Shown here in pieces: positions 8,258 through 29,530 of a stretch of DNA of 64,000 nt. Where the stretch lies: NCBI RefSeq assembly GCF_000332195.1, contig NZ_KB235922.1, forward strand, positions 1 to 64,000. Reading direction: 5' to 3'. The notes under the pieces are model-generated. The model saw only the letters and a program-made list of their open reading frames with translations. It did not search any database and was not told the origin of the DNA. The position numbers and the translations under genes are program-made. Origin of the DNA: Pleurocapsa sp. PCC 7319 (lineage in GTDB: Bacteria > Cyanobacteriota > Cyanobacteriia > Cyanobacteriales > Xenococcaceae). Position 1 is the stretch's first letter, and every line of letters starts with the position of its first letter.

Positions 8258-9907
8258 ATGTTTGCTCTAACTAAAAACACTTCTCGCCAGAGAGAGATTG
8301 CTGAAGTAGTATTTCGTAACGGTTGGGATTATGCGCGAGGGTTATTAACTGGTGACAAGGCAGATGAACCCCGTTTACCCTCTCCAGAAGTTTTACGCAA
8401 CATTCTGATTGAATTAGGACCCGTATACGTCAAGTTAGGACAATTACTTTCGACTCGCCCCGATATTTTACCAGGACGTTATGTAGACACCCTAACAGCT
8501 CTTCAAGCAAAAGTGCCTCCTGCTCCCTGGGAACAGGTCGAAGCTCTAATTAGACAAGAATTATCTCAACCCTTGGAAGAGGTTTTTCGTGATATTGATC
8601 GTAATGCCGTTGCCGCAGGGTCTATTGGACAGGTTTATTGTGCAGTTTTAATCAATGGGCAAAAGGTAGCTCTCAAGGTGCAACGCCCTGGCATAGAAGT
8701 GGTAGTTGCGCAAGATATTTCCTTAATTAAAAGTTTGGCGGAATTAGTTTCCTTGACTGAATTTGGCAAAAATTTTGATATTGTGGGTCTAGCTGATGAA
8801 TTTAGTAATGCTCTGCAAGCTGAACTAGACTTCACAACAGAAGCTGAATACACTGAACAGTTACGCTGCAATCTTGCAGAGAGTAAGTGGTTTAATACTC
8901 AACAATTGTTAATTCCTCAGATATATAACAATCTCACTACCGCCAAGTTACTAACTATTGAGTGGTTAGAAGGAGAACCCATTCTAGACGCGAATTTACC
9001 TCAGGTTAGAAATCATCAAGACGAAGCTACTCAACGTAGCGAAATGACAACAATTTTATTTCGAGCTTTTTTCCAGCAAATATATATTGATGGTTTTTTT
9101 CATGCCGATCCCCATCCAGGAAATATTTTTTATTTAGAGGATGGTCGAGTAGCTCTTCTTGATTGCGGTATGGTTGGTCGTTTAGATCCTCGTACTCAGC
9201 AAATCTTGACAGAAATGTTGTTAGCTATTGTCGATCTTGATGCTCGTCGCTGTAGTCAGTTAACTCTAGAGCTAGCCGAAGGCGGTCAAGAAGTTAATTT
9301 AAATCGTTTGACCCATGATTATGACCGCATGCTCAGGAAGTATTACAATCGCACTATTTCTCAGATGAACTTTAGCGAGGTGATTTATGAAATATTACAG
9401 GTGTCTCGTAATAATAAAATTCGACTTCCTAGTAATATGGGATTGTATGCAAAAACCCTCGCTAACTTAGAAGGGGTGGCTAGAGGCTTTTATCCCCAAA
9501 TTAATCTTCTAGATCAAATTAGACCTTTAATGGTGGATTTATTTCGCCGTCAATTTCTAGGGGAAAGACCTGCGGAGACACTATTACGGATTGGTCTGGA
9601 TCTTAAAAGTCTGTCATTGCGATCGCCTCGCCTAGTAGAGTTACTGCTAGATCGGATTACTGCCGAAACCCTCAAATGGAACATCAGTATTCGCCAGCTA
9701 GATATTCTAGCCTTGAGTCTTGAAGATTCAGCCAATCGACTTTCGTTTAGTATTTTGGTTGGCTCTTTAATCATGGGGGCAGCGATTATCTCTACAGGTT
9801 CTGCTACCACTCAAGTTTCTATTTTGAGTAATGTCCTCTTTACTGTAGCTAGCCTTTTAAGTATCTGGTTAATTGTCAGTATTTTACGCTCGGGCAAACT
9901 CAAGTAA
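8258..9907 (+). CDS. ABC1/AarF/UbiB family atypical kinase
   Basis: A 549-residue member of the ABC1 (ADCK/UbiB) family, which supports quinone and prenyl-lipid metabolism. Family signatures are all present: KLGQLLSTRPDILP (KxGQ), the Ala-rich loop AAGSIGQVY, the Lys in VALKVQRPG, the catalytic HADPHPGN, and LLDCGMVGRL in place of the canonical DFG. Two transmembrane segments close the protein (residues about 490-510 and 520-543), giving membrane anchoring. Cyanobacteria carry several paralogues, so the exact orthologue cannot be named. Confidence 0.9.
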   Translation: MFALTKNTSRQREIAEVVFRNGWDYARGLLTGDKADEPRLPSPEVLRNILIELGPVYVKLGQLLSTRPDILPGRYVDTLTALQAKVPPAPWEQVEALIRQELSQPLEEVFRDIDRNAVAAGSIGQVYCAVLINGQKVALKVQRPGIEVVVAQDISLIKSLAELVSLTEFGKNFDIVGLADEFSNALQAELDFTTEAEYTEQLRCNLAESKWFNTQQLLIPQIYNNLTTAKLLTIEWLEGEPILDANLPQVRNHQDEATQRSEMTTILFRAFFQQIYIDGFFHADPHPGNIFYLEDGRVALLDCGMVGRLDPRTQQILTEMLLAIVDLDARRCSQLTLELAEGGQEVNLNRLTHDYDRMLRKYYNRTISQMNFSEVIYEILQVSRNNKIRLPSNMGLYAKTLANLEGVARGFYPQINLLDQIRPLMVDLFRRQFLGERPAETLLRIGLDLKSLSLRSPRLVELLLDRITAETLKWNISIRQLDILALSLEDSANRLSFSILVGSLIMGAAIISTGSATTQVSILSNVLFTVASLLSIWLIVSILRSGKLK

Positions 9908-10396: not shown

Positions 10397-13285
10397 ATGA
10401 GGCTGAAAAAGCTGAATAAAAAGCTGATAAAGCTAGATAAAAAGCTACTTAATCTCAATAATCGTCATTTTTTAATCTTAGATACGATTATTTTCTCTCT
10501 AACCCCATTGTTAGGGATTATTCTACGTTTAGATGACTTTGTTGCCCTGGAAGAATATCGTAACGGTCTGATCGTGGCAACAATTATTTTTTCACTGATT
10601 AAGTTAGTTGTTTTTACATCTTGTGGATTTTATAAGCGATATTGGAAATACGCTAGTATCGAGGAATTAACTGAAATCGCAGCTTTAATTGCAGTAGCAG
10701 TAATTTCAGAAATAATTGTTCTGGGCTTTTTAGAATATTTACTAGGAAACAGTGTCGAAAAGTATTTAGTTCCTCGTTCTCTACCTTTACTCGATGGTAT
10801 TCTCACCTTCATTTTAGTTGGGGGAATTCGCTTCAGTATCAGAGCTTCAGAAAGAGCTAATCTGAAGAAGAAAAATTTCTATCGGCGCGATCGCGTGTTA
10901 ATTGTGGGGGCAGGGGATGCAGGAGTATCAATTCTCCAGGAAATGCGACGCAATCCCAAATTAGGTTTTAATCCTGTTGCTTTTATAGATGATGACCCTC
11001 AGAAATTAGGTCTTAATATCAGAGGAGTTTCAGTATTGGGAAATCGTTACCAAATTCCTGAAATTGTTGCCTCCTATAGCATTCGTCAGGTGGTAATTGC
11101 CATGCCCTCTGCCTCGGGGAAAACAATCAGAGAAATTGTGGATGTCAGTCAGGCGATCGGAATTAAGGTCAACACAATGCCCTCTACTAACGAGATTCTC
11201 GATAATAGCAATAGAGCTAATATCCTAAGGGAAGTTAAAATCGAAGATTTGTTGAGACGTGAACCGATCCAGACCGATGCTCAAAGCGTCTTTTCGCTTT
11301 TAGAAGGTAAAACAGTTTTAATTTCAGGAGCTGGTGGTTCAATTGGGAGTGAACTGTGTCGCCAAATTTTCCGTTGCCGTCCATCTCAAATGATTTTGCT
11401 GGGACACGGCGAAAACTCAGTATTTAACATACGCGAAGAATTAGAACAAGTTCTACAGATTTTAAAACAGGAAACAAAGCCAGATAAAGAATTAACCGAG
11501 TTAACTCCTTTTATTGCCGATTTAAGGATTAAAGCTCGACTTGAAGATGCTTTTCGCCTTTACCAGCCAGATATTGTTTTTCACGCAGCAGCTCATAAAC
11601 ATGTTCCCCTGATGGAGCTAAATCCTCCAGAAGCAATTACCAATAATGTTTTAGGCACAAAAAATTTGTTGGATTTTTCCATTAAGTACCATGTTAATAA
11701 CTTTGTGATGATCTCGACAGACAAAGCTGTCAACCCAACTAATGTTATGGGAGCAAGCAAACGTACTGCCGAAATGCTGGTACTACAAGCGGCTAAAACT
11801 AGTGGTAGACCTTATGCTGTAGTTCGCTTTGGTAATGTTTTAGGTAGTCGAGGCAGTGTGGTTCCTACTTTTAAGCGACAGATTGCGAAGGGAGGTCCTG
11901 TGACAATTACCCATCCCGAAATTTGCCGCTACTTTATGACTATTCCAGAAGCGGTTCAATTAGTATTACAAGCTTCTGTTTTGAGTAACAAAAATAGCCA
12001 GGGTCAAATCTTCATGTTAAATATGGGTCAACCCGTCAAGATTGTTGACTTAGCTAAAGATTTAATCCATCTTTCTGGATACGAAGTGGGTAAAGATATC
12101 GAAATTGTCTTTACTGGATTACGCCCTGGAGAAAAGCTATATGAAGAGCTGCTGGTCGCTGGAGAAGAATATCAACCTACTGCTCATGAAAAAGTTTTGG
12201 TAGTGAAAAATGCTAGTCATATTATTCCCGAAAATCTAGATTTAACTATAGAAATACTTGGTGAGGCGGCAGAAAGGAACGATATTAATCTAATTGTCTT
12301 TTTGTTAGATCGATTAGTAGTCGGATACGCCACTAAGTATCAGCAAATCGATGTTGAGCGAGCCCAAGAAAGCTTTGAAAAAATAATCAGCGAAGCTTGC
12401 GAGCTTAACCCACTTACAACTGATTTAAATATAGATTTCAATTCTCAAGTAAAATTACCGACTCTCAACTCTTTAACTCGATTAACAGTTGGAGAAATAG
12501 AAAGAGGATTAAGACAAGCGTTGGAAAACGAAGAGTTTTGTCTTTATTATCAACCAGTGATGGACTTAAAAACTGGTGCGATCAAGGAATTTGAGGCGTT
12601 ATTACGTTGGAATCATCCTAAATTCGGATTAATTATGCCTCAGAAATTCATGGCAACGGCAGAAGAATCGGGAATGTTGATCCCTATTCAACGCTGGATT
12701 ATTGAAGCAATCTGTATACAGCTAAAGACATGGCAACAAGAAGCTAGTTTTGACTCAAATATTTCTATCAGTATCAATATTTCTAGTCAGCAACTCCTGC
12801 AAACAAGTTTAGTCAAGCATTTAAAATACAATCTGGAAACCCATCAGATTAACCCTCAACTTTTATCTTTAGAAATATCCGAATATCTAATTACAGAAAA
12901 TCCACGGGCAGCAATGACTGTTTTACCTCAATTAAAAAGGTTGGGTATTCGATTGCAGATTGATAACTTCGGTAAGGTAGCCTCAATTTATGGTCGGGTT
13001 CAACCCAATTTGTTATACAGAGAATTTGATCGAGTTAAGATTGACCGCTATCTAGTAAATAGTATTGATCGAGATCAGCAAATGGGGGATGTTTTCCAAA
13101 ATATTGTGATTGAGCTTGAGAACTATGGACTAGAAATAACCGCAACTGGAATTGAAAATATAGCTCAATTAAACAAAGTAAGAGAAGTTGCTTGTGACTA
13201 TGGACAAGGTTATTTTTTAGCTCAACCTTTAAGTAGTAATAATGTGGCTAGATCCAAAAGTATCGAAAGCCAAAACATTTTGTAA
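10397..13285 (+). CDS. PglF/CapD-type nucleotide-sugar 4,6-dehydratase fused to a degenerate EAL domain
   Basis: A 962-residue fusion. Residues about 28-150 hold four membrane segments. Residues about 168-290 are the CoA-binding-like domain of FlaA1/PglF proteins (LIVGAGDAGVSIL). Residues about 300-600 are a short-chain dehydrogenase fold with SGAGGSIGSELC for NAD(P), STDKAVNPTN, and MGASK with Met at the usual Tyr position, as in UDP-GlcNAc 4,6-dehydratases. Residues about 698-955 are an EAL domain. EALLRW (731), LEISEY (821), KIDRYL (880) and GQGYF are kept, but the DDFG motif reads DNFG (854) and the AEG Glu reads ATG (914). These losses suggest it binds c-di-GMP without efficient hydrolysis. 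It heads the island; the fusion is unusual. Confidence 0.9.
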   Translation: MRLKKLNKKLIKLDKKLLNLNNRHFLILDTIIFSLTPLLGIILRLDDFVALEEYRNGLIVATIIFSLIKLVVFTSCGFYKRYWKYASIEELTEIAALIAVAVISEIIVLGFLEYLLGNSVEKYLVPRSLPLLDGILTFILVGGIRFSIRASERANLKKKNFYRRDRVLIVGAGDAGVSILQEMRRNPKLGFNPVAFIDDDPQKLGLNIRGVSVLGNRYQIPEIVASYSIRQVVIAMPSASGKTIREIVDVSQAIGIKVNTMPSTNEILDNSNRANILREVKIEDLLRREPIQTDAQSVFSLLEGKTVLISGAGGSIGSELCRQIFRCRPSQMILLGHGENSVFNIREELEQVLQILKQETKPDKELTELTPFIADLRIKARLEDAFRLYQPDIVFHAAAHKHVPLMELNPPEAITNNVLGTKNLLDFSIKYHVNNFVMISTDKAVNPTNVMGASKRTAEMLVLQAAKTSGRPYAVVRFGNVLGSRGSVVPTFKRQIAKGGPVTITHPEICRYFMTIPEAVQLVLQASVLSNKNSQGQIFMLNMGQPVKIVDLAKDLIHLSGYEVGKDIEIVFTGLRPGEKLYEELLVAGEEYQPTAHEKVLVVKNASHIIPENLDLTIEILGEAAERNDINLIVFLLDRLVVGYATKYQQIDVERAQESFEKIISEACELNPLTTDLNIDFNSQVKLPTLNSLTRLTVGEIERGLRQALENEEFCLYYQPVMDLKTGAIKEFEALLRWNHPKFGLIMPQKFMATAEESGMLIPIQRWIIEAICIQLKTWQQEASFDSNISISINISSQQLLQTSLVKHLKYNLETHQINPQLLSLEISEYLITENPRAAMTVLPQLKRLGIRLQIDNFGKVASIYGRVQPNLLYREFDRVKIDRYLVNSIDRDQQMGDVFQNIVIELENYGLEITATGIENIAQLNKVREVACDYGQGYFLAQPLSSNNVARSKSIESQNIL

Positions 13286-13452: not shown

Positions 13453-14565
13453 ATGAAAATTACTTTAGTCATCTCATCCCTTGGTTGTGGAGGAGGAGAA
13501 AGAGCTATCGTTTTGCTTGCTGAAGGTCTTGCTAATCTCAAACATCAGGTTACTTTAATTACTCTGGCAGATAAAAGTACTGATTTTTATCAATTATCTT
13601 CAAAAGTTTCTCGCCTAGATTTAGGAATTATGGGCAAGTCATCTAGCATAGTAGAAGCTCTAGCCAACAACATTAGAAGGCTTTCTACGCTAAGAAAAGC
13701 AATTGAGTCTACTAAACCTGATGTTGTTGTTTCTTCTTTAAGAATAACCAACGTTTCCGTAATTTTAGCTCTACTAGGCAAAAAATATCCTGTTATCGTT
13801 ACCGAACAAAATGACGTTAAAGTTTTTTCCTATGGATTAGTTTGGGAGACTTTGCGTCGTTTAACTTATCCACTTTGTTCTAAGGTTGTTAGCGTAAGTC
13901 AAGGAGTTGATTTGGGTATAGATTTATTACCGTCTAACAAAAGAGCGGTAATTTATAATCCTATAACCATTAAAGACGATCAAACTACTCCTCCTCTACC
14001 TCCAGAAGTTGATTCAAATAAGAATTGGATTGCTAGTATGGGCAGATTAACAGACCAGAAAGGACATGATCTGTTACTACAAGCTTTTCATAAAATTGCT
14101 GACAAACATTCCAACTGGCAGCTACTAATCTTAGGTCGAGGGGAACTGGGAGAACAGCTAGAAAAAATGAGAGACGAGTTGGGCTTATCAGGTCAAGTTA
14201 TTTTCACTGATGCCCTTAGTAATCCTTTTGCTGTTTTGAAAAAAGCCAAACTATTTGTCATGGCTTCACGTAACGAAGGTTTTCCCTTAGCTCATGGAGA
14301 AGCTTTAGCTTGTGGTTTACCCGTAATTGCTACTGATTGCCCTAGCGGACCAAGGGAGATGATTCGCCACGAAATAGATGGTCTCTTAGTTGATAACTAT
14401 GACATAGATGGATTAGCTGCTGCAATGAATTATCTAATGTCTGATGAACAGGAACGAAAACGACTTGCTGCCAAAGCTTCAGAGGTAGTTGAAAGATTTG
14501 GTCAGGACAAAATAGTAGCCGAGTGGGAAACTCTCATACAAAAAGTTGTTGGAGGAAAAAACTAA
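13453..14565 (+). CDS. glycosyltransferase family 4
   Basis: A 370-residue GT-B retaining glycosyltransferase that adds a sugar from a nucleotide-sugar donor to the growing repeat unit at the cytoplasmic face. The acceptor-side Gly-rich loop SSLGCGGGERA is at the N-terminus; the second Rossmann domain starts at MGRLTDQKGHDLL, and the donor-binding EX7E motif is in SRNEGFPLAHGEAL. Donor and acceptor cannot be read from sequence. The next GT4 gene begins 6 bases after its stop, so the two are co-transcribed. Confidence 0.92.
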   Translation: MKITLVISSLGCGGGERAIVLLAEGLANLKHQVTLITLADKSTDFYQLSSKVSRLDLGIMGKSSSIVEALANNIRRLSTLRKAIESTKPDVVVSSLRITNVSVILALLGKKYPVIVTEQNDVKVFSYGLVWETLRRLTYPLCSKVVSVSQGVDLGIDLLPSNKRAVIYNPITIKDDQTTPPLPPEVDSNKNWIASMGRLTDQKGHDLLLQAFHKIADKHSNWQLLILGRGELGEQLEKMRDELGLSGQVIFTDALSNPFAVLKKAKLFVMASRNEGFPLAHGEALACGLPVIATDCPSGPREMIRHEIDGLLVDNYDIDGLAAAMNYLMSDEQERKRLAAKASEVVERFGQDKIVAEWETLIQKVVGGKN

Positions 14566-14571
14566 ATAACC

Positions 14572-15669
14572 GTGAAAAAACGTATCACCTTTTTTATGGA
14601 CGCACTACATGGTGGTGGCGCAGAAAAAGCTGTAGTTAATCTCCTTAAAGGTTTAGCCAAAAGAGATGAGTTTGACCTGGATTTAGTTTTATCAGCACTA
14701 GAAGGTCCTTATTTAGACCAAGTACCCAAGAAAGTGCGCATTGTTAATTTAAATAACGGTAGAGTCATAACTTCTATCTTGCCATTAGCTAATTATCTTA
14801 GGAAAAATCGTCCTTGGGCTTTAATTGCCAATATGAGTCATGTCAATGTGGTAGCATCGATGGCTAGGGAATTAGCTCAAATCAAAACTCGATTAGTTTT
14901 AGTCGAACATAACAATTTATCAGCTAACAAAAGTGATTTGAGACGGGCCAAATTGGTGCCACCTTTAATGAGATGGCTTTATCCTCGTGCAGATGCAGTT
15001 GTGGCAGTTTCTGCTGGTGTTGCCCTGGACTTAGAACATCAATTGGGTCTGAGGGCAGAAACTGTTAAAGTACTGTACAATCCCGTCGTCGATGAAGATT
15101 TAGTTACTCACAGCCAAGATACTTTGACTCATCCTTGGTTTGCCGGAAATTCACCTCCAGTATTTCTAGCAGTGGGCAGATTAAAGCAGCAAAAAGATTT
15201 TTCCAATCTATTACATGCTTTTGCCCTAGTGAGAAAACAAAAGTTGGCTCATCTAATCATTTTGGGAGAAGGTCAAGAGCGTCAAAAACTGGAGAACATC
15301 ATTGATACCTTAGGTATCAGTAAGGATGTCTTATTACCTGGCTTTGTTAAAAATCCCTATATCTATATGAAACGAGCTAGTTGTTTTGTTTTATCTTCCA
15401 GACATGAAGGATTACCCACTGTATTAATTGAAGCTATGGCTTGCGGTTGTCCTGTTGTCGCTACTAATTGCCCCAGTGGACCAGATGAAATTCTTGATCG
15501 TGGAGCTTATGGTTCTTTAGTTCCGATTGAAAATTCTGAAGCTTTAGCTGAGGCGATGCTTAAAACATTAGAAAATCCTCTTCCCAAAGAGATTCTGGTA
15601 GAACGAGCTAATGAATATTCCACAGAAAAAGTAGTAGACACTTATCTGTCATTAGTTAATGTCCTTTAA
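14572..15669 (+). CDS. glycosyltransferase family 4
   Basis: A 365-residue GT4 enzyme with the same layout as its upstream neighbour: DALHGGGAEKAVVNLL at the N-terminus, VGRLKQQKDFSNLLHAF at the start of the donor domain, and EX7E in SSRHEGLPTVLIEAMACG. It starts with GTG at 14572, 6 bases after the previous stop. The two proteins are diverged paralogues and probably add consecutive sugars. Confidence 0.92.
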   Translation: MKKRITFFMDALHGGGAEKAVVNLLKGLAKRDEFDLDLVLSALEGPYLDQVPKKVRIVNLNNGRVITSILPLANYLRKNRPWALIANMSHVNVVASMARELAQIKTRLVLVEHNNLSANKSDLRRAKLVPPLMRWLYPRADAVVAVSAGVALDLEHQLGLRAETVKVLYNPVVDEDLVTHSQDTLTHPWFAGNSPPVFLAVGRLKQQKDFSNLLHAFALVRKQKLAHLIILGEGQERQKLENIIDTLGISKDVLLPGFVKNPYIYMKRASCFVLSSRHEGLPTVLIEAMACGCPVVATNCPSGPDEILDRGAYGSLVPIENSEALAEAMLKTLENPLPKEILVERANEYSTEKVVDTYLSLVNVL

Positions 15670-15921: not shown

Positions 15922-17280
15922 ATGTTAAAAACAATTACCCAAAAAATTCAGCCAATATTGATATCGACTGAAAAAAGTAATCACAGTCTCAAAAATAGAT
16001 TGATTAAAGGTGCAGCCGGATCTTTTGGACTTAAGATTGCTGGTACTGGTCTTGCTTTTGTTATGAGTATTATATTTGCACGTTTTTTGGGAACAGTCGG
16101 TCTTGGAACTTACTCCTATGCTACTACTTGGGCAAATCTATTAAGTATTCCTGCAACTTTGGGTCTCGATCAACTTATGGTTAGGGAAATAGCTATCTAT
16201 CGCGCCAAATCTCGATGGGATTTAATATCAGGTTTATTGCGTTGGTCTAATTTAGTAGTTTTAGCTTCTTCTATAACCTTAACTCTAGTTGCCATAGCTG
16301 TGATTTGGGAGATGAAAGGAGAGTCAAATACCAGCATAGTTATAGCAGTGGCACTGGCTATGGTAACTGTTCCTATTATCTCCCTAAGAAAACTTAAATT
16401 GGGAACGATGCAGGGGCTTCATCGAATCGTCTTAGGACAGATGCCTGATGGGCTGTTTGCGCCAATTATAGTTATTTCTTTAACTAGTATTGTTTATTCA
16501 GTCTTTCCGAAGAATTTTAATGTGTTTTGGGTGTTGGCAATCAAAATTGTAGCCATCACAATTACCTTTTTTATTGGAGCTTCATGGCTCTTAAGATCGC
16601 TTCCTCCAGAAGTAATGCAAGTTAAACCTCAGTACGAAAGGAAACAATGGTTAATTGCGGCATTACCCTTTATGTTTTTGGGGACAACACATCTCATAAA
16701 CTCACGGATAGACATCATTATGTTAGGTGGAATCAAAGGTGTTGAAACAGTAGGTATTTATACCATAATCGTAGCCATTACCAAACTAACTATTTTTATT
16801 AATCAAGCGGCTAATAATGTTCTAGGCCCCACAATCGCCTCTCTTTATTCAGAGGGTCAACTCAAACAGCTAGAGCGGCTCATTCATAAGAGCGTACTAT
16901 CTGTATTTTTATTATCCTTGATAATTGGCATAACCATGATGGGAGTAGGAAAATACTTGCTGCTGATCTTCGGTTCAGATTTTATTTCTGGACGCACTGC
17001 GATGAACATCCTAATTGTAGGCCAAATTTTCAATGCTTTTACGGGACCAGTTGGTTTAGTACTTACTATGACAGGACATCAAAACTATACAGCTACCAGT
17101 CTAGGGTTAACTGCGGTTTTAAACATTATACTCAACGCTTTAATGATTCCTAAATGGGGCATTAATGGCGCAGCAATAGCAACCACAACAAGTCTAATTG
17201 TGATTAATATTATCAATGTTATTTTCATGCAGAGAACACTAAACATTTCACTATATTCCCTAAGGCAGAAAAAAACATAA
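15922..17280 (+). CDS. Wzx-type polysaccharide flippase
   Basis: A 452-residue integral membrane protein of the MVF/MOP (polysaccharide exporter, Wzx/RfbX) superfamily, with 12-14 hydrophobic segments. The N-terminal sequence KGAAGSFGLKIAGTGLAF and the segment FARFLGTVGLGTYSYATTW are typical of the family. It would move lipid-linked repeat units across the inner membrane for polymerisation by a Wzy-type enzyme; the candidate polymerase gene lies 3 kb downstream and is interrupted. Substrate specificity cannot be read. Confidence 0.9.
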   Translation: MLKTITQKIQPILISTEKSNHSLKNRLIKGAAGSFGLKIAGTGLAFVMSIIFARFLGTVGLGTYSYATTWANLLSIPATLGLDQLMVREIAIYRAKSRWDLISGLLRWSNLVVLASSITLTLVAIAVIWEMKGESNTSIVIAVALAMVTVPIISLRKLKLGTMQGLHRIVLGQMPDGLFAPIIVISLTSIVYSVFPKNFNVFWVLAIKIVAITITFFIGASWLLRSLPPEVMQVKPQYERKQWLIAALPFMFLGTTHLINSRIDIIMLGGIKGVETVGIYTIIVAITKLTIFINQAANNVLGPTIASLYSEGQLKQLERLIHKSVLSVFLLSLIIGITMMGVGKYLLLIFGSDFISGRTAMNILIVGQIFNAFTGPVGLVLTMTGHQNYTATSLGLTAVLNIILNALMIPKWGINGAAIATTTSLIVINIINVIFMQRTLNISLYSLRQKKT

Positions 17281-17357: not shown

Positions 17358-18122
17358 ATGATTGTAGCCGATCAAAAAAAAATCATTTATGTACATATTT
17401 ACAAAACAGGTGGGAGCAGTATCACTAAGCTTTTACTTCCTCACATAACAGAAAAATATAGAAGTAAAAATCCCAAAACAGCAGGTATTAATTGGCAGAA
17501 AACTTGGCATATCGATAATAGAATGCATTCTAAATTTTCTGATGCCTTACCATTTGTTGACGAATTAAATATTGATTTAGAGGAATATTTTAAATTTACT
17601 TTTGTACGTAATCCTTATAGTTGGGTTTTATCAGTGTGGAATAGCTTTTTTTGTTCACCTATGGGAAATGGTTCAATGACTTTTAAGAAATATTTAATTA
17701 CTCAGTTTGCCAAAATAACAAATAGTACTAAGTATGGACCACCTGCACGATATTTTTATAAAATGTATCCTGATGGTGGCTTTAAGAATTTTGTAATATT
17801 TATCGAGCATATGGCCTCTAGTAATCCACAATTAGCTCGAAATTTTTGGGGCTGTAACGATCAGTATAGTTTCATTGAAAATAATCGCAATATTCAATTT
17901 GACTTTATTGGAAAATTCGAAAACCTTGAAAAAGATCTAAACACAATTTTTAAAATAGTTGATGGAAATAATATCTTGGATATTCCCCATGTAACTCATG
18001 GTAGTAGTCATAATCAAAAAGATAGACAAAACTATCTTAAATATTACGACGAAGAGTCAATTAAAATAATTAATAAAGTTTTCGCTAGAGACTTTGAAGC
18101 TTTTGATTATCAACCTATCTAG
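17358..18122 (+). CDS. sulfotransferase (Sulfotransfer_2-like)
   Basis: A 254-residue soluble protein with both PAPS-binding motifs: the 5'-phosphosulfate loop HIYKTGGSSI near residue 15 and the 3'-phosphate motif TFVRNPYSWVLSVW near residue 83. This pattern is that of the carbohydrate sulfotransferases related to heparan 2-O- and chondroitin sulfotransferases. It would transfer sulfate from PAPS to a sugar hydroxyl. The first of three consecutive sulfotransferase genes. Confidence 0.88.
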   Translation: MIVADQKKIIYVHIYKTGGSSITKLLLPHITEKYRSKNPKTAGINWQKTWHIDNRMHSKFSDALPFVDELNIDLEEYFKFTFVRNPYSWVLSVWNSFFCSPMGNGSMTFKKYLITQFAKITNSTKYGPPARYFYKMYPDGGFKNFVIFIEHMASSNPQLARNFWGCNDQYSFIENNRNIQFDFIGKFENLEKDLNTIFKIVDGNNILDIPHVTHGSSHNQKDRQNYLKYYDEESIKIINKVFARDFEAFDYQPI

Positions 18123-18218
18123 AATTCATTATATTTTTGGAGATATAAAATAGCTAAAAAGAAAAAAGCTAATTATAAAATCTAGTATTTGATATATTTT
18201 TAGGAAAAGAATAATCGC

Positions 18219-19130
18219 ATGAAATTACCAAACTTAATCGTTGCTGGACTTCCAAAAGCGGGAAGTAGCTCTTTGTTTCATTGGCTTGCAGCTCATCCCG
18301 AAGTCTATGGTGCTCCCTCTAAAGAGACATTTTATTTTATTGATCGCGATAGCCCATTGTTAAGATTAGAAGCCAATTACAATTTCCACGGTTTAGACTT
18401 ATATGAATCTTTTTTTTCTAATTGCCCTGATGATGCCAAGATTGTTTTAGAAGCGACTCCTCACTACATTTATCAAAAAACCGCATTGGATTTTTTTGCT
18501 AGTTGCAATCCTCAGCCTCACGTTGTTTTTTTATTGCGTAAACCATCTAAGCGAATTTTTTCTGCATTTAGTTTTATGCAAAATAACCTGGCTCGTTTAG
18601 ACAGCAATCTAACTTTTGAACAGATCACAGATTTGCTTTTAGATCAAACAGGTAATCTTGTCCAAAAGCTAGATTATCCTCAAGATAGTATTTTTTATGA
18701 ATGGTTAAACGATCAGCTACCACATAATCGTTATTATGACTTTCTTACTTGCTGGTCAGAGCGTTTCTCTAATGACAAAATTCACATCATACTCTTTGAG
18801 GAAATGATAGCTAATCCTCAAGCTACGCTAATTAAGTTAGCTGAAAGTTTGGGTATTGACGCTAACTTTTATAAAGAGTTTTATTTCGAACAAAGAACTA
18901 AAACTATCGTAATAAAAAATAGATTTGCTCATGAGATGTTACTTAAGCTTGCTCCATATATTGCTACTAGCAAAATTAGAGGTCTATTAAAATCTTTATA
19001 CATTCAGCTGAATAGCTCTGCTCCGAAGCCTGCTACATCTGAATCTCTAACACGCTTAGATAATTATTTTCAACCTTATAATCAAAAACTGGCGGAAGAA
19101 TTTAATTTAAATCTTGAAAGTTGGAAGTAA
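18219..19130 (+). CDS. sulfotransferase
   Basis: A 303-residue PAPS-dependent sulfotransferase. The N-terminal loop is GLPKAGSSSLFHWL, followed by KETFYF, and the 3'-phosphate motif is FLLRKPSKRIFSAF near residue 110. The form is closer to the heparan N-/O-sulfotransferase group than the previous gene, so the two probably act on different positions or sugars. It lies 96 bases after that gene on the same strand. Confidence 0.88.
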   Translation: MKLPNLIVAGLPKAGSSSLFHWLAAHPEVYGAPSKETFYFIDRDSPLLRLEANYNFHGLDLYESFFSNCPDDAKIVLEATPHYIYQKTALDFFASCNPQPHVVFLLRKPSKRIFSAFSFMQNNLARLDSNLTFEQITDLLLDQTGNLVQKLDYPQDSIFYEWLNDQLPHNRYYDFLTCWSERFSNDKIHIILFEEMIANPQATLIKLAESLGIDANFYKEFYFEQRTKTIVIKNRFAHEMLLKLAPYIATSKIRGLLKSLYIQLNSSAPKPATSESLTRLDNYFQPYNQKLAEEFNLNLESWK

Positions 19131-19296
19131 AAAAAGAGTACTCAAACTAATTAAAAAAAGTTAATTCAGGTTCATACTAAGAAAAATAGTTAATTAAGAT
19201 CAAGTACTAGAAACTTTAGAAGCAGCTAAGTATACTCTATTTCGTATGAGCGAGGCTAATGCGAAATCATAAAAATTTCAATAAGATTATATAGAT

Positions 19297-20223
19297 ATGG
19301 TCAAACCTAATTTCTTTATTGTCGGTGCGCCTAAATGTGGCACAACAGCCCTTAGCGAATATTTACGAGAACATCCTAATATCTATATGTGTGACCCAAA
19401 AGAACCTCACTTTTTTAACTATGATTTTGAGCAGTATCGAGTAGTTAAGACACTGGAAGAATATCTGAGTTTATTTGAAGCTAGCACTTCAGAACATTTT
19501 GCTATTGGGGAGGCTTCGGCTCTATATTTATATTCTTCGGTGGCTCTTGAAAAGATACAACAGTTCGACCCTCAAGCAAAGATCATCGTTATGCTTCGTA
19601 ATCCAGTAGATTTAGCATATTCTTACCATTCTCAGTTATTGTATGCATCCGATGAGAACGAACAAGACTTCGAGCAGGCTTGGCGATTACAGAGTATTAG
19701 AAGGAAAGGTAAAAAAATACCTAAACATTGTAGAAATTCTGCTATTCTGCAATATGCTGCTGTAGCCAGGCTAGGGGAGCAAATAGAACGATTATTAGGT
19801 ATATTTCCTCGTAAACAAGTAGAGATTATTTTTTTTGATGACTTTACCAACTCTACAAAGCAAGTTTACGAAAAAGTTTTGAAATTTCTCGAAGTGCCTG
19901 GGGATAATCGCACAGATTTTAGGCGGATAAATCAAAATAAAAGTCATAAACTGAGGGTAATCGGTAATTTTTCCGAAAGACCTCCTGAATTCCTCAACGA
20001 TCATGTTATGCGAGCCAAAAAAATCTTGGGACTTGAAAGACTTTATATTTTGGATGCTGTCCGTTACTTCAATAACAAAGTTACGACTCGTCAACCTCTT
20101 TCTGCTAGTTTTCGTGCTGAGTTAGTAGCCGAATTTGAATCCGATATCAAAAAATTATCTCAATTACTAGATAAAGATTTAAGTCACTGGCTGTTAGAAA
20201 AAAGCCCCAAATTAAAAAAATAA
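19297..20223 (+). CDS. sulfotransferase (heparan-sulfotransferase-like)
   Basis: A 308-residue protein with FIVGAPKCGTTALSEYLREH at the N-terminus, the KEPHFF motif that often supplies the catalytic residues, and VMLRNPVDLAYSYH as the 3'-phosphate site. This is the best family match of the five intact sulfotransferases in the window. It precedes the interrupted polymerase gene. Confidence 0.9.
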   Translation: MVKPNFFIVGAPKCGTTALSEYLREHPNIYMCDPKEPHFFNYDFEQYRVVKTLEEYLSLFEASTSEHFAIGEASALYLYSSVALEKIQQFDPQAKIIVMLRNPVDLAYSYHSQLLYASDENEQDFEQAWRLQSIRRKGKKIPKHCRNSAILQYAAVARLGEQIERLLGIFPRKQVEIIFFDDFTNSTKQVYEKVLKFLEVPGDNRTDFRRINQNKSHKLRVIGNFSERPPEFLNDHVMRAKKILGLERLYILDAVRYFNNKVTTRQPLSASFRAELVAEFESDIKKLSQLLDKDLSHWLLEKSPKLKK

Positions 20224-20279
20224 AAAATAAATTATAAGTAGAGAGTTTAAGAATTCGGATTTTACTTACGAATGAAAGA

Positions 20280-21570: not shown

Positions 21571-22973
21571 CTATCAAGGGTTGCTGGCAGTGATAGCCGT
21601 ATTAGTTTTTTTTACAAAGTTGAGTATTTATTTGCAATATATTGGTATCGGAATACCCTTATTATGGCTGATTGGTTTTCTATTTATTTCTATTCCAGTA
21701 TTAATAACAATTCCTAATAGGTTAAAGTACATACCTATTTCTATTGTGGTTTGGTGTGCAGCATATTTGGCAATCCCTTTGATTTCAATTTTGATCTTTC
21801 CACATATTACCAATTTGCAATTTATGGAAGATCGAATTAGGTCAATCGTAGTGTTGCTCCTAATGTCAGTGATTTTTTCTCAACATTTGTTAGTTTTAAG
21901 ATGGACTAAACTAACAATTTTATTAGTAACGCTCAGCAATGTTTGTATGTTCATTTATGAATTCTTCAATCCTTTAGCTTTCTATCGAGAAGAGGATGTT
22001 ATAGGAAGAGCTTCAGGACTTTACATGGATGCTAATGAAGCTAGCTGTGCCATAATTTTGGGGATGATTTTTACTATTGATTTTATCAAACCCAAATATC
22101 GCTTATTCTATGCTTTATTCGTGGTTTTGGGAATTGCTGTGGCTTTTTCTCGTAGTGGTATGATTGGTTGGCTAATAGTTGTATTATCATTTGTAGCAAC
22201 TAAAGTGATTCCTCGATATCAACTACCTATTTTTGTTCTGTCGCTCTTGGTCTCTATTACCATTTTGTCAAGTCAATTAAACAATTTGATCTATATGAAA
22301 AATGCTGATGGTATAGATCTATTTAGTCCGGGAACTATCGCCAGAATTGAATTTTTAACTAATCCTCTAGGGCAAGAAGACGATTCTAGTGGGAGCCGTA
22401 TATCTCATGTAGATGAAGCTTGGCAAAAATTCGCTAGAAAACCTTTTGTTGGGAATGGCTTAGGTTCTGGAGGAAGTGAAACTAAAGTTGCTAACTTTAA
22501 CCAAGATACAGGACAAAGAAGTCACAATATATATTTAGATCTGATGGTGGAATTTGGATTTTCAGGGGCTTTAATTTATCCTTTGTTACTTATAGCCTCT
22601 GTATGGAAAGCACGTGGGGAACTGACAAAATACACATTCCCTTTTATAATGTTCCTGCTCATGTGGGGATTTTTCAGTCATACAACCTTGAATTCACCGT
22701 TTTTATTGATATCTTACGCCATAATGGCAAACTTTACCCATCAAAGCCGTTTAAGAAATCTTTAATTTTATTTACTCATCAAAAAAATTCTAGGATGGAA
22801 AAATTGACTAGACTAATAATTTGGACTGTTTAAATCTAGTAAATCTGTTATCGCTTGAAAATTATCCCTACAGATTTAAGACTTTTCAAATAATATAAAT
22901 AACTTCTTATGAATCATTAGCACTTTATTTCTATTAAAAAACTTTTTGTCAACCTGCTCACCAAAAAAAATCA

Positions 22974-24644: not shown

Positions 24645-24805
24645 CTCGTAACTTATAGAAACGCTTTGCGTGAATTAGCTTCGTTGAGATTTAATGCATT
24701 TTAGCTTTTAGCTACTACATAAAGAGAAAGTCAGTTTGAAAGCAATTTTTAATTCACAGTAGACGTAAATAATAAATTAAGTAGTTATTTTTAGTAATTA
24801 AGTTG

Positions 24806-25990
24806 ATGAAATTAGATCCAAATCAAACAAACGCTCAAAGTAAGAAGATCAAAGTCTTATTTTTGATTACTGCTTTAAGAACTGGCGGAGCAGAAATGAT
24901 GCTTTACAAATTATTATCTAAAATTGATCGGAGCAAGTTTTCCCCAACAGTAATTTCGATGATTGAAGGAGGTGTATTTGTCGACCGTATACAAGCTTTA
25001 AATATTCCCATATACTTTCTGGGTATGCAGCAAGGAATACCTAATCCTCAGGCATTGGTCAGGTTAAATAAACTATTAAATAAAATTCAACCAGATTTGA
25101 TTCAAGGTTGGATGTATCACGCTAATTTGATCGCTCATTTGGCTAATGTCTTATCCAGAAGCAAAGTCCCTGTTTTTTGGAGTATCCATCACTCAGTTGA
25201 TTCTTTATGGGCAGAAAAAATAACTGTGGCAACGACAATCAAGCTGACTGCGATACTTTCTCATCAGATTGACCAAGTGATTTTTTCTGCTGAAAAAAGC
25301 CAAAGACAGCATCTTAAGTTGGGGTATCGCTCTAATAACGCGATGACAATTAGCGATAACTTTGATATTTCCAAGTACAAACCTGCTTCGGAACCTCAAG
25401 AGAATTTACGTCATTCTTTAAATTTACCAGAAAGCTCTATTTTGATAGGTTCTATCGCTCGATATCATCCAATGAAAGACCATGCCTGTTTAATTGAAGC
25501 AGCAGCAAAAATTGTTGATGATTATCCTGAAGTACATTTTATTTTAGTAGGGCCAAACGTAGATGATAAAAATACTGTTTTGACAGAGCAGATTCAAAAA
25601 TTAGGTATTGTAGATCGAATTCATTTATTAGGAGAACGTCAGGATATTCCTACTCTAATGACTTCACTAGATATTTTCACCTCTAGTTCGGCCTATGGCG
25701 AATCTTTTCCCAATGTGCTTGGAGAAGCAATGTCTTGTCAAATTCCTTGCGTTACTACCGACATAGGTGATTCTCAAACTATTGTTGGTGATACTGGTGT
25801 GGTAATTCCACCCAAAGACCCCGAAGCATTAGCTGAAGCTTGGCGGAAACTAATTTTTATGGGTATAGATGAGCGACAAAATTTGGGGAAAAAAGCCAGA
25901 AAACGTGTTGAAATACATTTCGATTTGGATGGGGCAAATTCTTTTGTCAAAAAATATGAAAGTATCTATAAATCTGCGCTTTATCTTTAA
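24806..25990 (+). CDS. glycosyltransferase family 4
   Basis: A 394-residue GT-B glycosyltransferase. The N-terminus has LFLITALRTGGAEMMLYKLL, the donor domain begins at GSIARYHPMKDHACLIEAA, and the EX7E region is YGESFPNVLGEAMSCQIPCV. It is the third GT4 of the island. A TTG directly precedes the ATG chosen here. Specificity cannot be assigned. Confidence 0.92.
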   Translation: MKLDPNQTNAQSKKIKVLFLITALRTGGAEMMLYKLLSKIDRSKFSPTVISMIEGGVFVDRIQALNIPIYFLGMQQGIPNPQALVRLNKLLNKIQPDLIQGWMYHANLIAHLANVLSRSKVPVFWSIHHSVDSLWAEKITVATTIKLTAILSHQIDQVIFSAEKSQRQHLKLGYRSNNAMTISDNFDISKYKPASEPQENLRHSLNLPESSILIGSIARYHPMKDHACLIEAAAKIVDDYPEVHFILVGPNVDDKNTVLTEQIQKLGIVDRIHLLGERQDIPTLMTSLDIFTSSSAYGESFPNVLGEAMSCQIPCVTTDIGDSQTIVGDTGVVIPPKDPEALAEAWRKLIFMGIDERQNLGKKARKRVEIHFDLDGANSFVKKYESIYKSALYL

Positions 25991-26058
25991 TATTCTGCTT
26001 TAGCTTCTAGTTGATTAAATTACCAAAAAATATTCTGACTTAAAAAAATATAAAAATA

Positions 26059-26925
26059 ATGCCTAAAACCCAATTAGATTTTGTAGCTGTAGGACCATTT
26101 AAGACAGGAACTTCTTGGATCTATAATTATCTACTTAACTATCAACAAATAGCTTTACCAACCAAAGTAAAAGAAACCTTTTTTTTTGATAAAAAGTTTA
26201 GTCGAGGTATAGATTGGTATTATGCACACTTTAGTCGACTTGAGTCCAATCAAAAGATTGCTGAAATAGCGCCTAGTTATTTCCATTCTATTGAAGCTTC
26301 TGAAAGAATATATAAGCTAAATCCTAAATGTAAAATAATTGTCACATTACGAGAGCCTGTTTCGCGCTTAGTTTCTTTTTATCTTCACATGAAACAAAGG
26401 GGAGAAATTAAGCCTGATGTATCTTTTTCTGAAGCAATATCCCAGAAAAAAATTTTACAAGATACTTCTCTCTACTATTTTCATCTATCTAGATGGATAA
26501 AAACTTTTGGTGCGGATAATGTTCAGGTTATTTTCTTTGAAAGACTTAAAAAATCTCCCGAAGATTTTGCGCAAGATCTATGTAATAAACTTGATATTAG
26601 GTTAGAAAATCGATCTAAAAACCTGTCAAAAAAAGTCAATCCTAGCCAAACTCCCGTTAATCATGAACTTGCTAAGGTGATCTATTCAAGTGTTAGGTTG
26701 TTACATAATCTTGGATTACATAAGATTGTTGACTATGGTAAGAATCTGGGAGTCAAGCAGTTACTTTTTAGTAAGAAAGAAGAAAAACTCCAACTCAGTA
26801 AAGACGAATTCATTTCTATTTTTAACTTGTTTAAACGAGACATTCTCATGCTTGAAACTGTTTTTAAATTTGATTTGTCTGATTGGAAAGAAATCTGGAG
26901 AGAACAAGGAATTACAATTAATTGA
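26059..26925 (+). CDS. sulfotransferase
   Basis: A 288-residue PAPS-dependent sulfotransferase: AVGPFKTGTSWIYNYLLNY is the 5'-phosphosulfate loop, KVKETFFFD follows as in heparan-type enzymes, and IVTLREPVSRLVSFYLHM is the 3'-phosphate motif. It lies 68 bases after a GT4 gene on the same strand. Confidence 0.88.
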   Translation: MPKTQLDFVAVGPFKTGTSWIYNYLLNYQQIALPTKVKETFFFDKKFSRGIDWYYAHFSRLESNQKIAEIAPSYFHSIEASERIYKLNPKCKIIVTLREPVSRLVSFYLHMKQRGEIKPDVSFSEAISQKKILQDTSLYYFHLSRWIKTFGADNVQVIFFERLKKSPEDFAQDLCNKLDIRLENRSKNLSKKVNPSQTPVNHELAKVIYSSVRLLHNLGLHKIVDYGKNLGVKQLLFSKKEEKLQLSKDEFISIFNLFKRDILMLETVFKFDLSDWKEIWREQGITIN

Positions 26926-27088
26926 TTCTATTTCTTGACGACATAACCAGATGATTTTTTAGAAGTAGACAAAGATGTGCATAGTAGTATATCAAAAACT
27001 TTTAGCGAAAATGTTCAAGTTTAATTTTTTGTCCAGTATTCACTAAATTACCTAATATAAATAATAATTTCCAAAAGAGGTTTTTAAA

Positions 27089-27790
27089 ATGCATATTTCA
27101 TACGCAGATAATTTTTTATTCATTCATACCCCTAAATGTGCTGGCTCTAGCATACAACAAGCCTTAAAAATCACAATTTTCAAGTCAGTTTTTAAATTTA
27201 AAAAAAGTGCTTATGAATTATTAATTCATGAAATAGATCAGGGCTTTTTCATAAATGCACTTAGAAATCCATTTACATATGACAACGTTACCAACAAAGT
27301 TGGAAGACATGCGTGGGCAAAGAGGTTAAAGAGAGAGCTTGGAGATGAAAAATACAGCAAGCTTTTTAAATTTGCTTTTGTTCGAAACCCTTGGGACTGG
27401 GAAGTATCTTGGTACAAATATATTAGTAAATCTCATGCACCAATATACCAGAATCATCCTATCAAATCAATGAGTTTTGAGGAATATATTGAGTGGATAA
27501 CAAATGACACAACAAAATCTTCTAGAAAATACTTAAGGTCACAAAAAAATATAATTACAGACGAAAAAGGCAAGATAATCGTTGATTTTGTGGGTAGATT
27601 TGAAAATCTACAATCAGACTATAATAAAATCTGTCAAATAATTGATTTGCCTACAACCAAATTGCCAGGAAGAAATAAATCTCAGAAAAAGAAAACAAAG
27701 ACCTATAAAGATTACTACAATGATAAAACCAAAGATCTTATTTATAATTATCATCGCGAAGATATAGACCTTTTTGGATACTCTTTCTGA
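27089..27790 (+). CDS. sulfotransferase (Sulfotransfer_2-like)
   Basis: A 233-residue protein with FIHTPKCAGSSIQQAL at the N-terminus and FAFVRNPWDWEVSWYKYI near residue 100, the two PAPS contacts. It resembles the sulfotransferase at 17358 more than the three longer ones, so the island carries two structural types. The C-terminus is Lys-rich (SQKKKTKTYKDYY). AAGAGG at 27075-27080 is a good ribosome binding site. Confidence 0.85.
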   Translation: MHISYADNFLFIHTPKCAGSSIQQALKITIFKSVFKFKKSAYELLIHEIDQGFFINALRNPFTYDNVTNKVGRHAWAKRLKRELGDEKYSKLFKFAFVRNPWDWEVSWYKYISKSHAPIYQNHPIKSMSFEEYIEWITNDTTKSSRKYLRSQKNIITDEKGKIIVDFVGRFENLQSDYNKICQIIDLPTTKLPGRNKSQKKKTKTYKDYYNDKTKDLIYNYHREDIDLFGYSF

Positions 27791-27862: not shown

Positions 27863-28477
27863 ATGAGTAGACTTATAAAAAATATTGCTGATCGCCTGGC
27901 AGCAGCGATCGCCCTGTTAATATTTTCACCATTGATTTTAATCGTGGCACTATTAATTCGTTTCAAATTAGGTAGCCCGATATTTTTCACCCAACTTCGC
28001 CCTGGTAAAGACGGAAAGATTTTCACTTTCTATAAGTTTCGTACCATGACCGACGCGAAGGATGAGGACGGTAATTTATTGCCCGATGGCGATCGCATAA
28101 CACCTTTGGGAGCTTGGTTACGTAAAACTAGCTTGGATGAGCTACCTCAAGTATTGAATGTTCTTAAAGGAGATATGAGCTTTGTCGGACCTCGTCCTTT
28201 ATTGGTACGCTATCTTGAGCTTTACAATGATGAGCAAGCTCGTCGCCATGATGTTTTACCAGGTATTACTGGTTGGGCGCAGGTCAATGGTCGTCGCAAT
28301 TTAGATGGAGATTTCCTCAAAAAGTTTCAACTGGATGTTTGGTATATCAATAACTGGAGCCTCTGGCTCGATTTCAAAATTATTTGGCTAACCGTATTGG
28401 CTGTAATTGTCCAAAAAGATATCGATCAGGATGGTTATACCACAGGTGGAGGAGAGTTTCTCGGAAACGATCAATAA
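27863..28477 (+). CDS. small phosphoglycosyl transferase (PglC/WcaJ C-terminal type)
   Basis: Transfers a sugar 1-phosphate from a nucleotide sugar to undecaprenyl phosphate, the first membrane step of repeat-unit assembly. At 204 residues it is the monotopic PglC-like form, with one N-terminal re-entrant hydrophobic helix (LAAAIALLIFSPLILIVALL), FYKFRTM, the catalytic Asp-Glu pair in SLDELPQ, and VGPRPLL. It is closely similar to the gene at 28913. Its natural partner is the dehydratase at 10397. Confidence 0.93.
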   Translation: MSRLIKNIADRLAAAIALLIFSPLILIVALLIRFKLGSPIFFTQLRPGKDGKIFTFYKFRTMTDAKDEDGNLLPDGDRITPLGAWLRKTSLDELPQVLNVLKGDMSFVGPRPLLVRYLELYNDEQARRHDVLPGITGWAQVNGRRNLDGDFLKKFQLDVWYINNWSLWLDFKIIWLTVLAVIVQKDIDQDGYTTGGGEFLGNDQ

Positions 28478-28647
28478 CTCATCAGAATAACTCTAAAATC
28501 GCCATATTTTTTCAAGGCATATAAAACATATAGAATAATCCTTATAAAATTTCGCTTTAAGAAACAGGCTTATAAACACGACTTGGCAATTTTTGGTCTT
28601 TCATAACGAGAAATCGTCATTTTAGCCTTCTCCAAAATCTCTGAAAG

Positions 28648-28805
28648 CGAATTATTTCGTTATTATCTTATCTCCCTTTATTGGTATTTTGGCGATCGCT
28701 ATTTACTTCAATATGGGTAATCCGATAATTTTTTTCCGACCTAGAGGAGGTAAAAACAACTCGACTTTTACCTTTTACAAATTCCGCACCATGACCGATG
28801 AATGA
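28648..28805 (+). pseudogene. remnant of a third phosphoglycosyl transferase
   Basis: The frame ILSPFIGILAIAIYFNMGNP, followed by FFRPRGG and FTFYKFRTMTDE, then TGA, matches residues about 18-70 of the two flanking sugar transferases. There is no start codon and the catalytic SLDELPQ region is missing. It lies exactly between the two intact copies, so it records a former triplication or a decayed older copy. Confidence 0.85.
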
Positions 28806-28912
28806 GATCGCATTATGAAACTGTACGCAGATATATACGATCGCATTTTAACCAATTGAACTAATTTACGTGAATTTCTAATTTAGAGCAAAATCGGATT
28901 TTAATACAAAGC

Positions 28913-29530
28913 ATGAGTAAATTTATCAAACATTTAGCAGATCGTCTGGTAGCTGCAATCGCCCTTTTAATATTTTCACCGATACTTGTATTCGTAGCAT
29001 TGCTAATTCGGGTGAAACTTAGCAGTCCCATATTTTTCACTCAACTTCGCCCTGGTAAAGACGGCAATATTTTTACTTTTTATAAGTTTCGTACCATGAC
29101 AGATGCTAAGAATGCAGAAGGTAATCTTTTACCTGATGGCGATCGCCTAACTACTTTAGGAGAATGGCTGAGAAAAACCAGTCTCGACGAACTACCACAG
29201 CTTTGGAACGTATTAAAAGGAGATATGAGTATAGTAGGTCCCCGTCCTCTGTTGATACAATACCTTGATCGTTATACTCCCGAACAAGCTCGTCGCCATG
29301 AAGTTCTACCTGGAATTACAGGCTGGGCGCAGGTGAATGGTCGTCGTCAATTAGATGGAGATTGGGAAAAAAAATTTCAACTCGATGTTTGGTATATCAA
29401 TAACTGGAGCCTCTGGCTCGACTGGAAAATTCTTTGGTTGACTGTATTTGCCGTGATCGGGCAAAAAGATATTAGTCAGGAAGGTCACACTACAGGAGAA
29501 GAATTTTTCAACAACAAAGAATCTCTTTAG
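28913..29530 (+). CDS. small phosphoglycosyl transferase (PglC/WcaJ C-terminal type)
   Basis: A 205-residue paralogue of the protein at 27863, with most residues shared, including FTQLRPGKDG, FYKFRTMTDA, the catalytic SLDELPQ and GITGWAQVNGRR. Differences lie mainly in the C-terminal third and between residues 130 and 165, which could alter the sugar accepted. Two functional initiating enzymes in one cluster would let two lipid-linked sugars start chains, or one may be redundant. Confidence 0.93.
   Translation: MSKFIKHLADRLVAAIALLIFSPILVFVALLIRVKLSSPIFFTQLRPGKDGNIFTFYKFRTMTDAKNAEGNLLPDGDRLTTLGEWLRKTSLDELPQLWNVLKGDMSIVGPRPLLIQYLDRYTPEQARRHEVLPGITGWAQVNGRRQLDGDWEKKFQLDVWYINNWSLWLDWKILWLTVFAVIGQKDISQEGHTTGEEFFNNKESL

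Follow-up and report, generated by a model that had tools for sequence, protein, structure and literature searches.

Within the first 64 kb of the main contig of Pleurocapsa sp. PCC 7319 (genome 7.39 Mb; this stretch of 64,000 nucleotides is referred to below as the window), one gene joins a PglF/CapD-type membrane nucleotide-sugar dehydratase to a C-terminal EAL domain. We found that this EAL domain, here and in the other complete fusions that we aligned, keeps its ligand pocket and its first metal site, lacks the second metal site as well as the catalytic Glu, and has a rebuilt loop 6. The fusion, its conservation, this residue and loop pattern, purifying selection and the surrounding gene cluster are direct observations, and we consider it fairly probable that they reflect a hydrolysis-dead EAL receptor for cyclic dimeric guanosine monophosphate (c-di-GMP) joined to a uridine diphosphate (UDP)-sugar 4,6-dehydratase, where binding of the messenger would control the enzyme. 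Homology points to c-di-GMP binding and to a lack of hydrolysis by the EAL domain; the further step, from binding to control of the dehydratase, is one that we purely infer, and activation at high c-di-GMP is our guess for its sign.

Residues and structure of the fused protein

The open reading frame (ORF; 10397-13285, forward strand) has an ATG start, 962 codons and no internal stop, and in its product N-terminal membrane segments are followed by the Pfam domains CoA_binding_3, Polysacc_synt_2 and EAL, in this order (Table 1). A preliminary description of this DNA had claimed a single 962-residue gene for a dehydratase and an EAL domain, which the ORF list and Pfam bear out exactly in coordinates, length and frame, and all of the motifs that it quoted are present (EALLRW, LEISEY, DNFG and ATG at the positions in Table 1, and KIDRYL at residues 881-886). 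Its proposal that catalytic but not ligand-contact residues are lost holds across the family: in an alignment of 42 rows, 40 of them complete fusions, both catalytic positions are gone in 40/40. Position 857, the second Asp of DDFG, is N in 25, H in 11, R in 2, Q in 1 and K in 1, never D, and position 917, the first Glu of EGxE, is T in 35, A in 3, S in 1 and V in 1, never E; because it is fixed in all 40, the double loss is a family trait rather than noise in one sequence. While these residues are uniformly gone, E733, R737, N794, E826, D856, E920, Q937, Q719 and P720 are invariant in 40/40, and the c-di-GMP contact set (YQP, ExLxR, the metal-1 ligands and the Gln of GQG), whose contact roles we in part presume, is likewise complete except at Y718 and L735 (39/40 each). 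K881 and G859 are kept in 37/40 each, and residue 829 is E in 39 and Q in one.

Among 109 control EAL domains covering both catalytic positions (13 from the same genome, 10 from relatives and 86 worldwide), both were lost in five (1, 0 and 4, respectively) and at least one in eight, and the catalytic Glu of EGxE was kept in 102/110 control rows; the worldwide controls (at least 80 EAL loci) were found through the pattern EALLRWxHP, which biases the control set to canonical EALs. A separate EAL domain of the same genome, L022 (G000:C7:2063633-2064358, outside the window), belongs to a 642-residue GGDEF-EAL frame, has DNFG, a Thr for the catalytic Glu and an Asp for the first Glu of ExxE, and falls outside the fused-EAL group in the EAL tree.

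Loop 6, a regulatory loop, also sets the fusions apart. From the first Asp to the Lys of KID we counted 25-28 residues in 40/40 fusions versus 21 in 109/110 controls (the remaining row is incomplete), so that loop 6 has 4-7 extra residues in 40/40 fusions and in 0/110 controls, and GYSS is found in 0/40 fusions versus 88/110 controls; the loci L036 and L077 retain GxGYSF in loop 6. EAL phosphodiesterases carry a DFG(T/A)GYSS motif there (PMC12943098). The complete two-metal site with both Asp residues of DDFG, the first Glu of EGxE and the GYSS loop, as expected of an active EAL domain, are thus all absent in 40/40. The closest solved relative by sequence is 2r6o (TBD1265), in whose alignment N857 falls on what we take to be D647 of TBD1265 and T917 on what we take to be E703, presumably also E352 of RocR, and the retained E920 is the counterpart of TBD1265 E706. 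In TBD1265, E703A abolished activity and mutation of E706 spared it (PMC12943098), and in BlrP1 the paired Asp residues are metal ligands and the Lys activates water (PMC3989770).

The EAL fold itself appears intact (Pfam 203.5 bits versus a cut-off of 31.3). An AlphaFold2 model built with 77 EAL relatives, the structural check that the preliminary description had proposed, gave a confident fold with a predicted local distance difference test (pLDDT) score of 90.6, and its two best Foldseek matches were c-di-GMP-bound EAL domains, MucR (5m1t, template modelling (TM) score 0.82) and TBD1265 (3n3t, 0.84), within a range of 0.82-0.85 for the six best EAL structures. Its weakest inner block, residues 860-869 (mean pLDDT 64), lies directly after DNFG.

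The dehydratase half has the Polysacc_synt_2 (381.7 bits versus a cut-off of 20.2) and CoA_binding_3 (54.4 versus 25) domains and the N-terminal hydrophobic segments of a PglF/CapD-type membrane enzyme, and its best match in the PDB, Campylobacter PglF/WlaL (5bju, E 3e-80), agrees with the assignment first given to it and shares the STDK...M...K stretch; residues 164-296 match 3nkl (9.6e-16). The glycine motif, STDK, M451, K455, R477 and N480 are invariant in 40/40 complete fusions, with the glycine motif presumably binding nicotinamide adenine dinucleotide and STDK...M...K presumably catalytic. This half therefore looks catalytically intact, and by homology it would be an active dehydratase; it is also the sole strong Polysacc_synt_2 (PF02719) gene of the genome (385 bits versus 66 for the next, among 19 matches). 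None of the 25 NCBIfam models listed (39 matched) reaches its cut-off, PseB scoring 187 versus 408. PglF/WlaL, the Campylobacter UDP-GlcNAc 4,6-dehydratase, and WbpM/CapD have the same Polysacc_synt_2 domain and the same STDK...M...K stretch, and full-length PglF has the membrane and CoA_binding_3 layout; whereas the PglF chain ends after the dehydratase domain, the fusion protein continues through a 100-residue linker, the first part of which is still present in unfused relatives, into the EAL domain. A model of the whole chain (pLDDT 77.5, predicted TM score 0.56) reached good confidence over most of its membrane, CoA_binding_3 and dehydratase portions, with N-terminal helices at residues 2-44, 55-75, 88-123 and 129-161.

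Distribution and history of the fusion

Complete in-frame fusions occur in 39/388 genomes sampled from the order, the window included, out of 79/388 that match at E <= 1e-200, and they span the families coded f1, f2, f15, f16, f17 and f58; in a phylum-wide sample the fusion is rare (4/386 genomes). With the full-length query against 40 genomes, including its own, complete copies were found in 5/12 other genomes of the genus, 5/12 other genomes of the family (two more of these hold an unfused relative) and one other family. A further copy is present in Tychonema sp. BBK16, and a plasmid of Pseudanabaena sp. ABRG5-3 encodes WP_126391687.1 (950 residues), the same fusion with the same two residues lost, which differs in adjoining tyrosine autokinase and polyketide synthase/non-ribosomal peptide synthetase genes and in its annotation, 'polysaccharide biosynthesis protein', which omits the EAL domain. 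A frame break between the domains, which would have made the gene an artefact, is not borne out, as stop-to-stop frames of 906-982 residues cover both domains in 38 further genomes; with these and the plasmid copy, we reject chance or an assembly artefact as the origin of the fusion. Individual copies are broken: that of G003 lies in three frames, that of G441 is interrupted ahead of the dehydratase domain, at about residue 280, and in G543 the EAL domain lies in a separate overlapping frame.

Unfused near relatives, with frames of 662-722 residues, make up all matches in family f18 and some in f1, f10, f27 and f58. An EAL trace at E 1e-3 was found in 0/22 unfused genes searched together with ~1.4 kb downstream, and likewise in none of three unfused f58 genes and their downstream DNA. 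No dehydratase lies in any EAL reading frame of the control loci. Of 299 genomes sampled from the phylum to which a Pseudomonas genome belongs, 174 have a PglF-like match at 1e-80, and none of the eight long frames (765-1369 residues) among the matches listed has an EAL domain; nor does a 1210-residue frame from a more distant cyanobacterium. On viral contigs, 46 dehydratase loci have frames of only 270-710 residues and hence are not full fusions. Hydrolysis-dead EAL receptors such as LapD and FimX are already known, but an EAL domain joined to a nucleotide-sugar dehydratase was not met in the literature searched: none of the titles and starts of abstracts listed, on this fusion, on cyanobacterial c-di-GMP architectures, on EAL catalytic residues and on PglF, describes it; as subscription journals, for the most part, and domain databases lay outside this search, a record elsewhere may exist.

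In trees of the dehydratase, a single clade with a long stem takes in all fusions tested (16, and 39 in a second tree) together with their near unfused relatives, at Shimodaira-Hasegawa-like approximate likelihood-ratio test (SH-aLRT) values of 100 and 99. The Pseudanabaena fusion branches first (97 and 98), although these were quick trees without bootstrap, in which long branches, including this basal copy, may be misplaced. L039 and L044 were left out of the 16-fusion tree, and L040, L236, L253 and L258 in addition from the 39-fusion tree. Unfused proteins are nested at several points among the fusions, and a single clade of fused dehydratases was rejected (difference in log likelihood 227.5, approximately unbiased test p = 7.65e-92; 16 versus 32 rows), while in the EAL tree, which took in only 45 of the worldwide controls, the EAL domains of 16 of the 40 fusions group into one clade apart from 67 others (SH-aLRT 99.1). 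With the EAL domains in one clade and the fused dehydratases not, the pattern fits one gain and several losses, and independent fusions in several lineages are unlikely. Both domain trees are thus consistent with a single ancient fusion whose EAL domain was then lost several times, parsimony on the dehydratase tree counting seven changes with remnants taken as fused and nine strictly. Family f58 presents the stages of such loss side by side, with complete EAL domains (G487, G435, G477), fragments (G424, G497) and no EAL domain (G506, G456, G515). The two fragments (L241 and L242, respectively) have neither the EAL motif nor the two ends of the domain and are still attached to the dehydratase; by their sequences, they are EAL domains part-way through decay.

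Where the EAL domain persists, it is constrained. The ratio of nonsynonymous to synonymous substitution rates (dN/dS) was 0.08-0.23 for the EAL domain versus 0.04-0.08 for the dehydratase in eight of the 15 pairs, those whose EAL dS was 0.3-2, the other seven being saturated or too close (highest EAL ratio 0.43, at dS 0.08). Since these ratios lie well below 1, the EAL domain is under constraint, though less than the dehydratase.

Weighing the role of the EAL domain

In the reading that we favour, the dehydratase would supply a 4-keto-6-deoxy sugar nucleotide to the sulfated Wzx/Wzy-type polysaccharide cluster encoded downstream, and the EAL domain, with pocket and first metal site kept, would bind c-di-GMP without turnover. 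Hydrolysis is not predicted because neither the second metal site nor the catalytic Glu remains, and c-di-GMP is probably made in the host, as the genome has 23 GGDEF matches (22 strong) and 16 EAL matches. Binding would alter the EAL domain, in its lengthened loop 6 and its dimer state, and the altered domain would shift the activity, assembly or docking of the dehydratase.

Known receptors offer partial precedents. Proteins of the LapD family have a periplasmic sensor, a HAMP domain and degenerate GGDEF and EAL domains; in the fusion, no GGDEF or HAMP match was found with Pfam at E 0.001, and the NCBIfam LapD model scores 43 bits versus a cut-off of 1020. LapD and FimX are, like the fusion EAL, EAL-based domains that have lost catalytic residues, and LapD also shares the loss of the loop-6 consensus and a link to the membrane (PMC3032553). 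LapD lost the first Glu of its EAL motif (KVL), whereas the fusion EAL keeps it and loses the second metal site, and both LapD and FimX carry a GGDEF domain beside the EAL domain and act on protein partners, whereas the fusion has no GGDEF domain and would act on an enzyme within its own chain. When c-di-GMP is bound, LapD has a rearranged loop-6 region and a dimerised EAL domain (PMC3032553), and by likeness to it the lengthened loop 6 would be a natural relay. TBD1265 (2r6o/3n3t) and other EAL phosphodiesterases are the nearest comparison by sequence and among the nearest by structure, but the fusion EAL has no equivalent of D647 or E703 and no GYSS loop. Cellulose synthase with a PilZ domain is likewise a polysaccharide enzyme with a built-in c-di-GMP receptor domain, although the domain there is PilZ rather than EAL and c-di-GMP acts on polymerisation, not on sugar-precursor synthesis. 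The PilZ domain in CelA is mentioned in PMC7063779.

Several observations weigh against control by c-di-GMP. The fusion is patchy, not only across the phylum but also within the genus, where beside the complete copies one of the 12 other genomes has a broken copy (G003) and six have no long match, and the EAL domain is absent or reduced in many close relatives. The EAL dN is 1.5-5-fold the dehydratase value (eight pairs), and 3/40 fusions lack the catalytic Lys (K881S) and 3/40 the Gly of DFG, which might mean drift. The whole-chain model gave no domain interface, its EAL half being badly modelled, and L022, although unrelated, has the same double loss. As the EAL domain has been lost repeatedly in sister lineages, the dehydratase seems not to need it, which suggests that the enzyme works alone and that control would be an optional layer.

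A first alternative, which we regard as unlikely though deserving of attention, is that the inactive EAL domain binds c-di-GMP as a docking module for a partner (an initiating transferase, a co-polymerase kinase, a flippase or an EAL/GGDEF protein), placing precursor synthesis at the assembly site with the rate of the dehydratase unchanged. The long, variable linker and the adjoining assembly genes would suit this, and FimX is thought to signal via partner proteins without changing much when it binds (PMC3032553), but no one conserved partner gene stood out, the downstream neighbours being generic GT4 glycosyltransferases and flippases and the upstream ones variable. That the EAL domain is a vestige, acquired by fusion, deprived of catalysis and now decaying, we consider improbable: its repeated losses, the fragments in G424 and G497, the split copy in G543 and its faster evolution are what decay would produce, yet all 40 fusions share an invariant pocket and the same uniform loss of the catalytic residues, dN/dS stays far under 1, and random decay would not spare pocket positions over such depth. 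Very improbable, in our view, is a phosphodiesterase with slow turnover or an odd metal site that lowers c-di-GMP near the polysaccharide machinery. The metal-1 ligands, the Lys (in most fusions) and GQG are kept, and FimX, with an odd motif, was active in one study (PMC3527489), but the Glu whose replacement abolished activity in TBD1265 is the one missing from all fusions and kept in nearly all other EAL rows. Least credible is a pocket for another ligand (pGpG, another dinucleotide or a UDP-sugar of the pathway) giving feedback control, for which nothing direct speaks beyond a loop 6 unlike that of other EALs and against which stand the unchanged c-di-GMP contact residues, their roles being partly presumed.

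Gene setting and significance

The fusion gene is the first of a flippase, polymerase and sulfotransferase cluster, with three GT4s, a Wzx-type flippase, five sulfotransferases, a Wzy_C protein and two initiating transferases downstream in the window (Table 1), and by the sequence of its neighbours its setting is surface-polysaccharide synthesis. Five sulfotransferase genes in one cluster (17358-27790) indicate a sulfated polysaccharide. No PglE-type aminotransferase was found among the cluster ORFs scanned, and the genome has two strong DegT-family genes at other sites. Downstream of 14 fused loci in further genomes, and with the final 500 codons of one plasmid neighbour counted in, 56 of the 58 proteins listed (two long plasmid proteins were left out and one was shortened) gave 19 GT4, 13 MatE-type flippase, 4 Wzy_C and 4 sulfotransferase matches, and 28 upstream proteins included 3 of Wzc/Wzz type and 4 ABC1 kinases.

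The cluster also contains a DDE-type transposase in two pieces, on overlapping ORFs (20482-21565; the second half is just below the Pfam cut-off), a glycoside-hydrolase-123-like protein (22974-24644) and a 357-residue ORF (29585-30658) with no Pfam or NCBIfam match at E 0.001. The tandem initiating transferases look like a duplication. Upstream of the fusion lies a gene for 549 residues (8258-9907), and ORFs of 549 residues lie directly upstream in four other genomes of the genus.

Table 1. Positions of the fusion gene, its parts and the downstream cluster in the window
Feature	Position	Strand	Basis
Fusion gene, PglF-type nucleotide-sugar dehydratase (membrane) with C-terminal EAL, 962 residues	10397..13285	+	ORF list, Pfam
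Predicted membrane anchor, hydrophobic segments at residues 24-49 (two overlapping), 54-79, 90-118, 130-148	10466..10840	+	Kyte-Doolittle
CoA_binding_3, residues 90-256	10664..11164	+	Pfam 2.1e-14
Polysacc_synt_2 dehydratase domain, residues 307-604	11315..12208	+	Pfam 2.8e-114; glycine motif, STDK, M451, K455 intact
Dehydratase-EAL linker, residues 605-704, partly helical, variable length	12209..12508	+	Comparison, model
EAL domain, residues 705-944, predicted TIM barrel	12509..13228	+	Pfam 4e-60, AlphaFold2, Foldseek
EALLRW, 733-738, metal-1 Glu and ligand-contact Arg kept	12593..12610	+	E733, R737 40/40
LEISEY, 825-830, metal ligand E826 kept	12869..12886	+	E826 40/40; E829 39/40
DNFG, 856-859, for DDFG; D856 kept, second Asp gone	12962..12973	+	Alignment of 40 fusions
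Altered loop 6, residues 860-880, without GYSS, 4 residues longer than in ordinary EALs	12974..13036	+	Loop comparison
KIDR, 881-884, Lys of catalytic water kept	13037..13048	+	K 37/40, S 3/40
ATG, 916-918, for AEG; catalytic Glu gone	13142..13150	+	Alignment of 40 fusions
GQG, 936-938, kept	13202..13210	+	Q937 40/40; G936 38/40
Two GT4-type glycosyltransferases	13453-14565, 14572-15669	+	Pfam
Wzx-type flippase	15922..17280	+	Pfam Polysacc_synt/MatE
Three sulfotransferases	17358..20223	+	Pfam
Wzy_C O-antigen ligase/polymerase-type protein	21581..22765	+	Pfam
Glycosyltransferase and two further sulfotransferases	24803..27790	+	Pfam
Two small initiating sugar-phosphate transferases (Bac_transf), 204 and 205 residues, 78% identical	27863..29530	+	Pfam, comparison

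To our knowledge, direct c-di-GMP control of cyanobacterial exopolysaccharide is poorly mapped. The receptor named in the articles consulted, CdgR, is a separate protein (PMC13075795). We tentatively propose, as a possibility that we would not rate as high as even, that cyanobacteria evolved, a single time, a hydrolysis-dead, c-di-GMP-binding EAL domain with a long loop 6 in cis to a dehydratase, with the messenger gating precursor synthesis rather than polymerisation, export or transcription, and that lineages that lost the EAL domain unhooked their polysaccharide from c-di-GMP. The control point so suggested, sugar-nucleotide supply, would be unlike the usual ones, and the fused family offers a single-chain candidate with a residue-level prediction, namely that it binds c-di-GMP and does not cut it. 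As relatives with a full, fragmentary and absent EAL domain are at hand, few constructs would be needed to test the idea, and, if it is true, these lineages would form a natural before-and-after series for the gain and loss of a second-messenger input.

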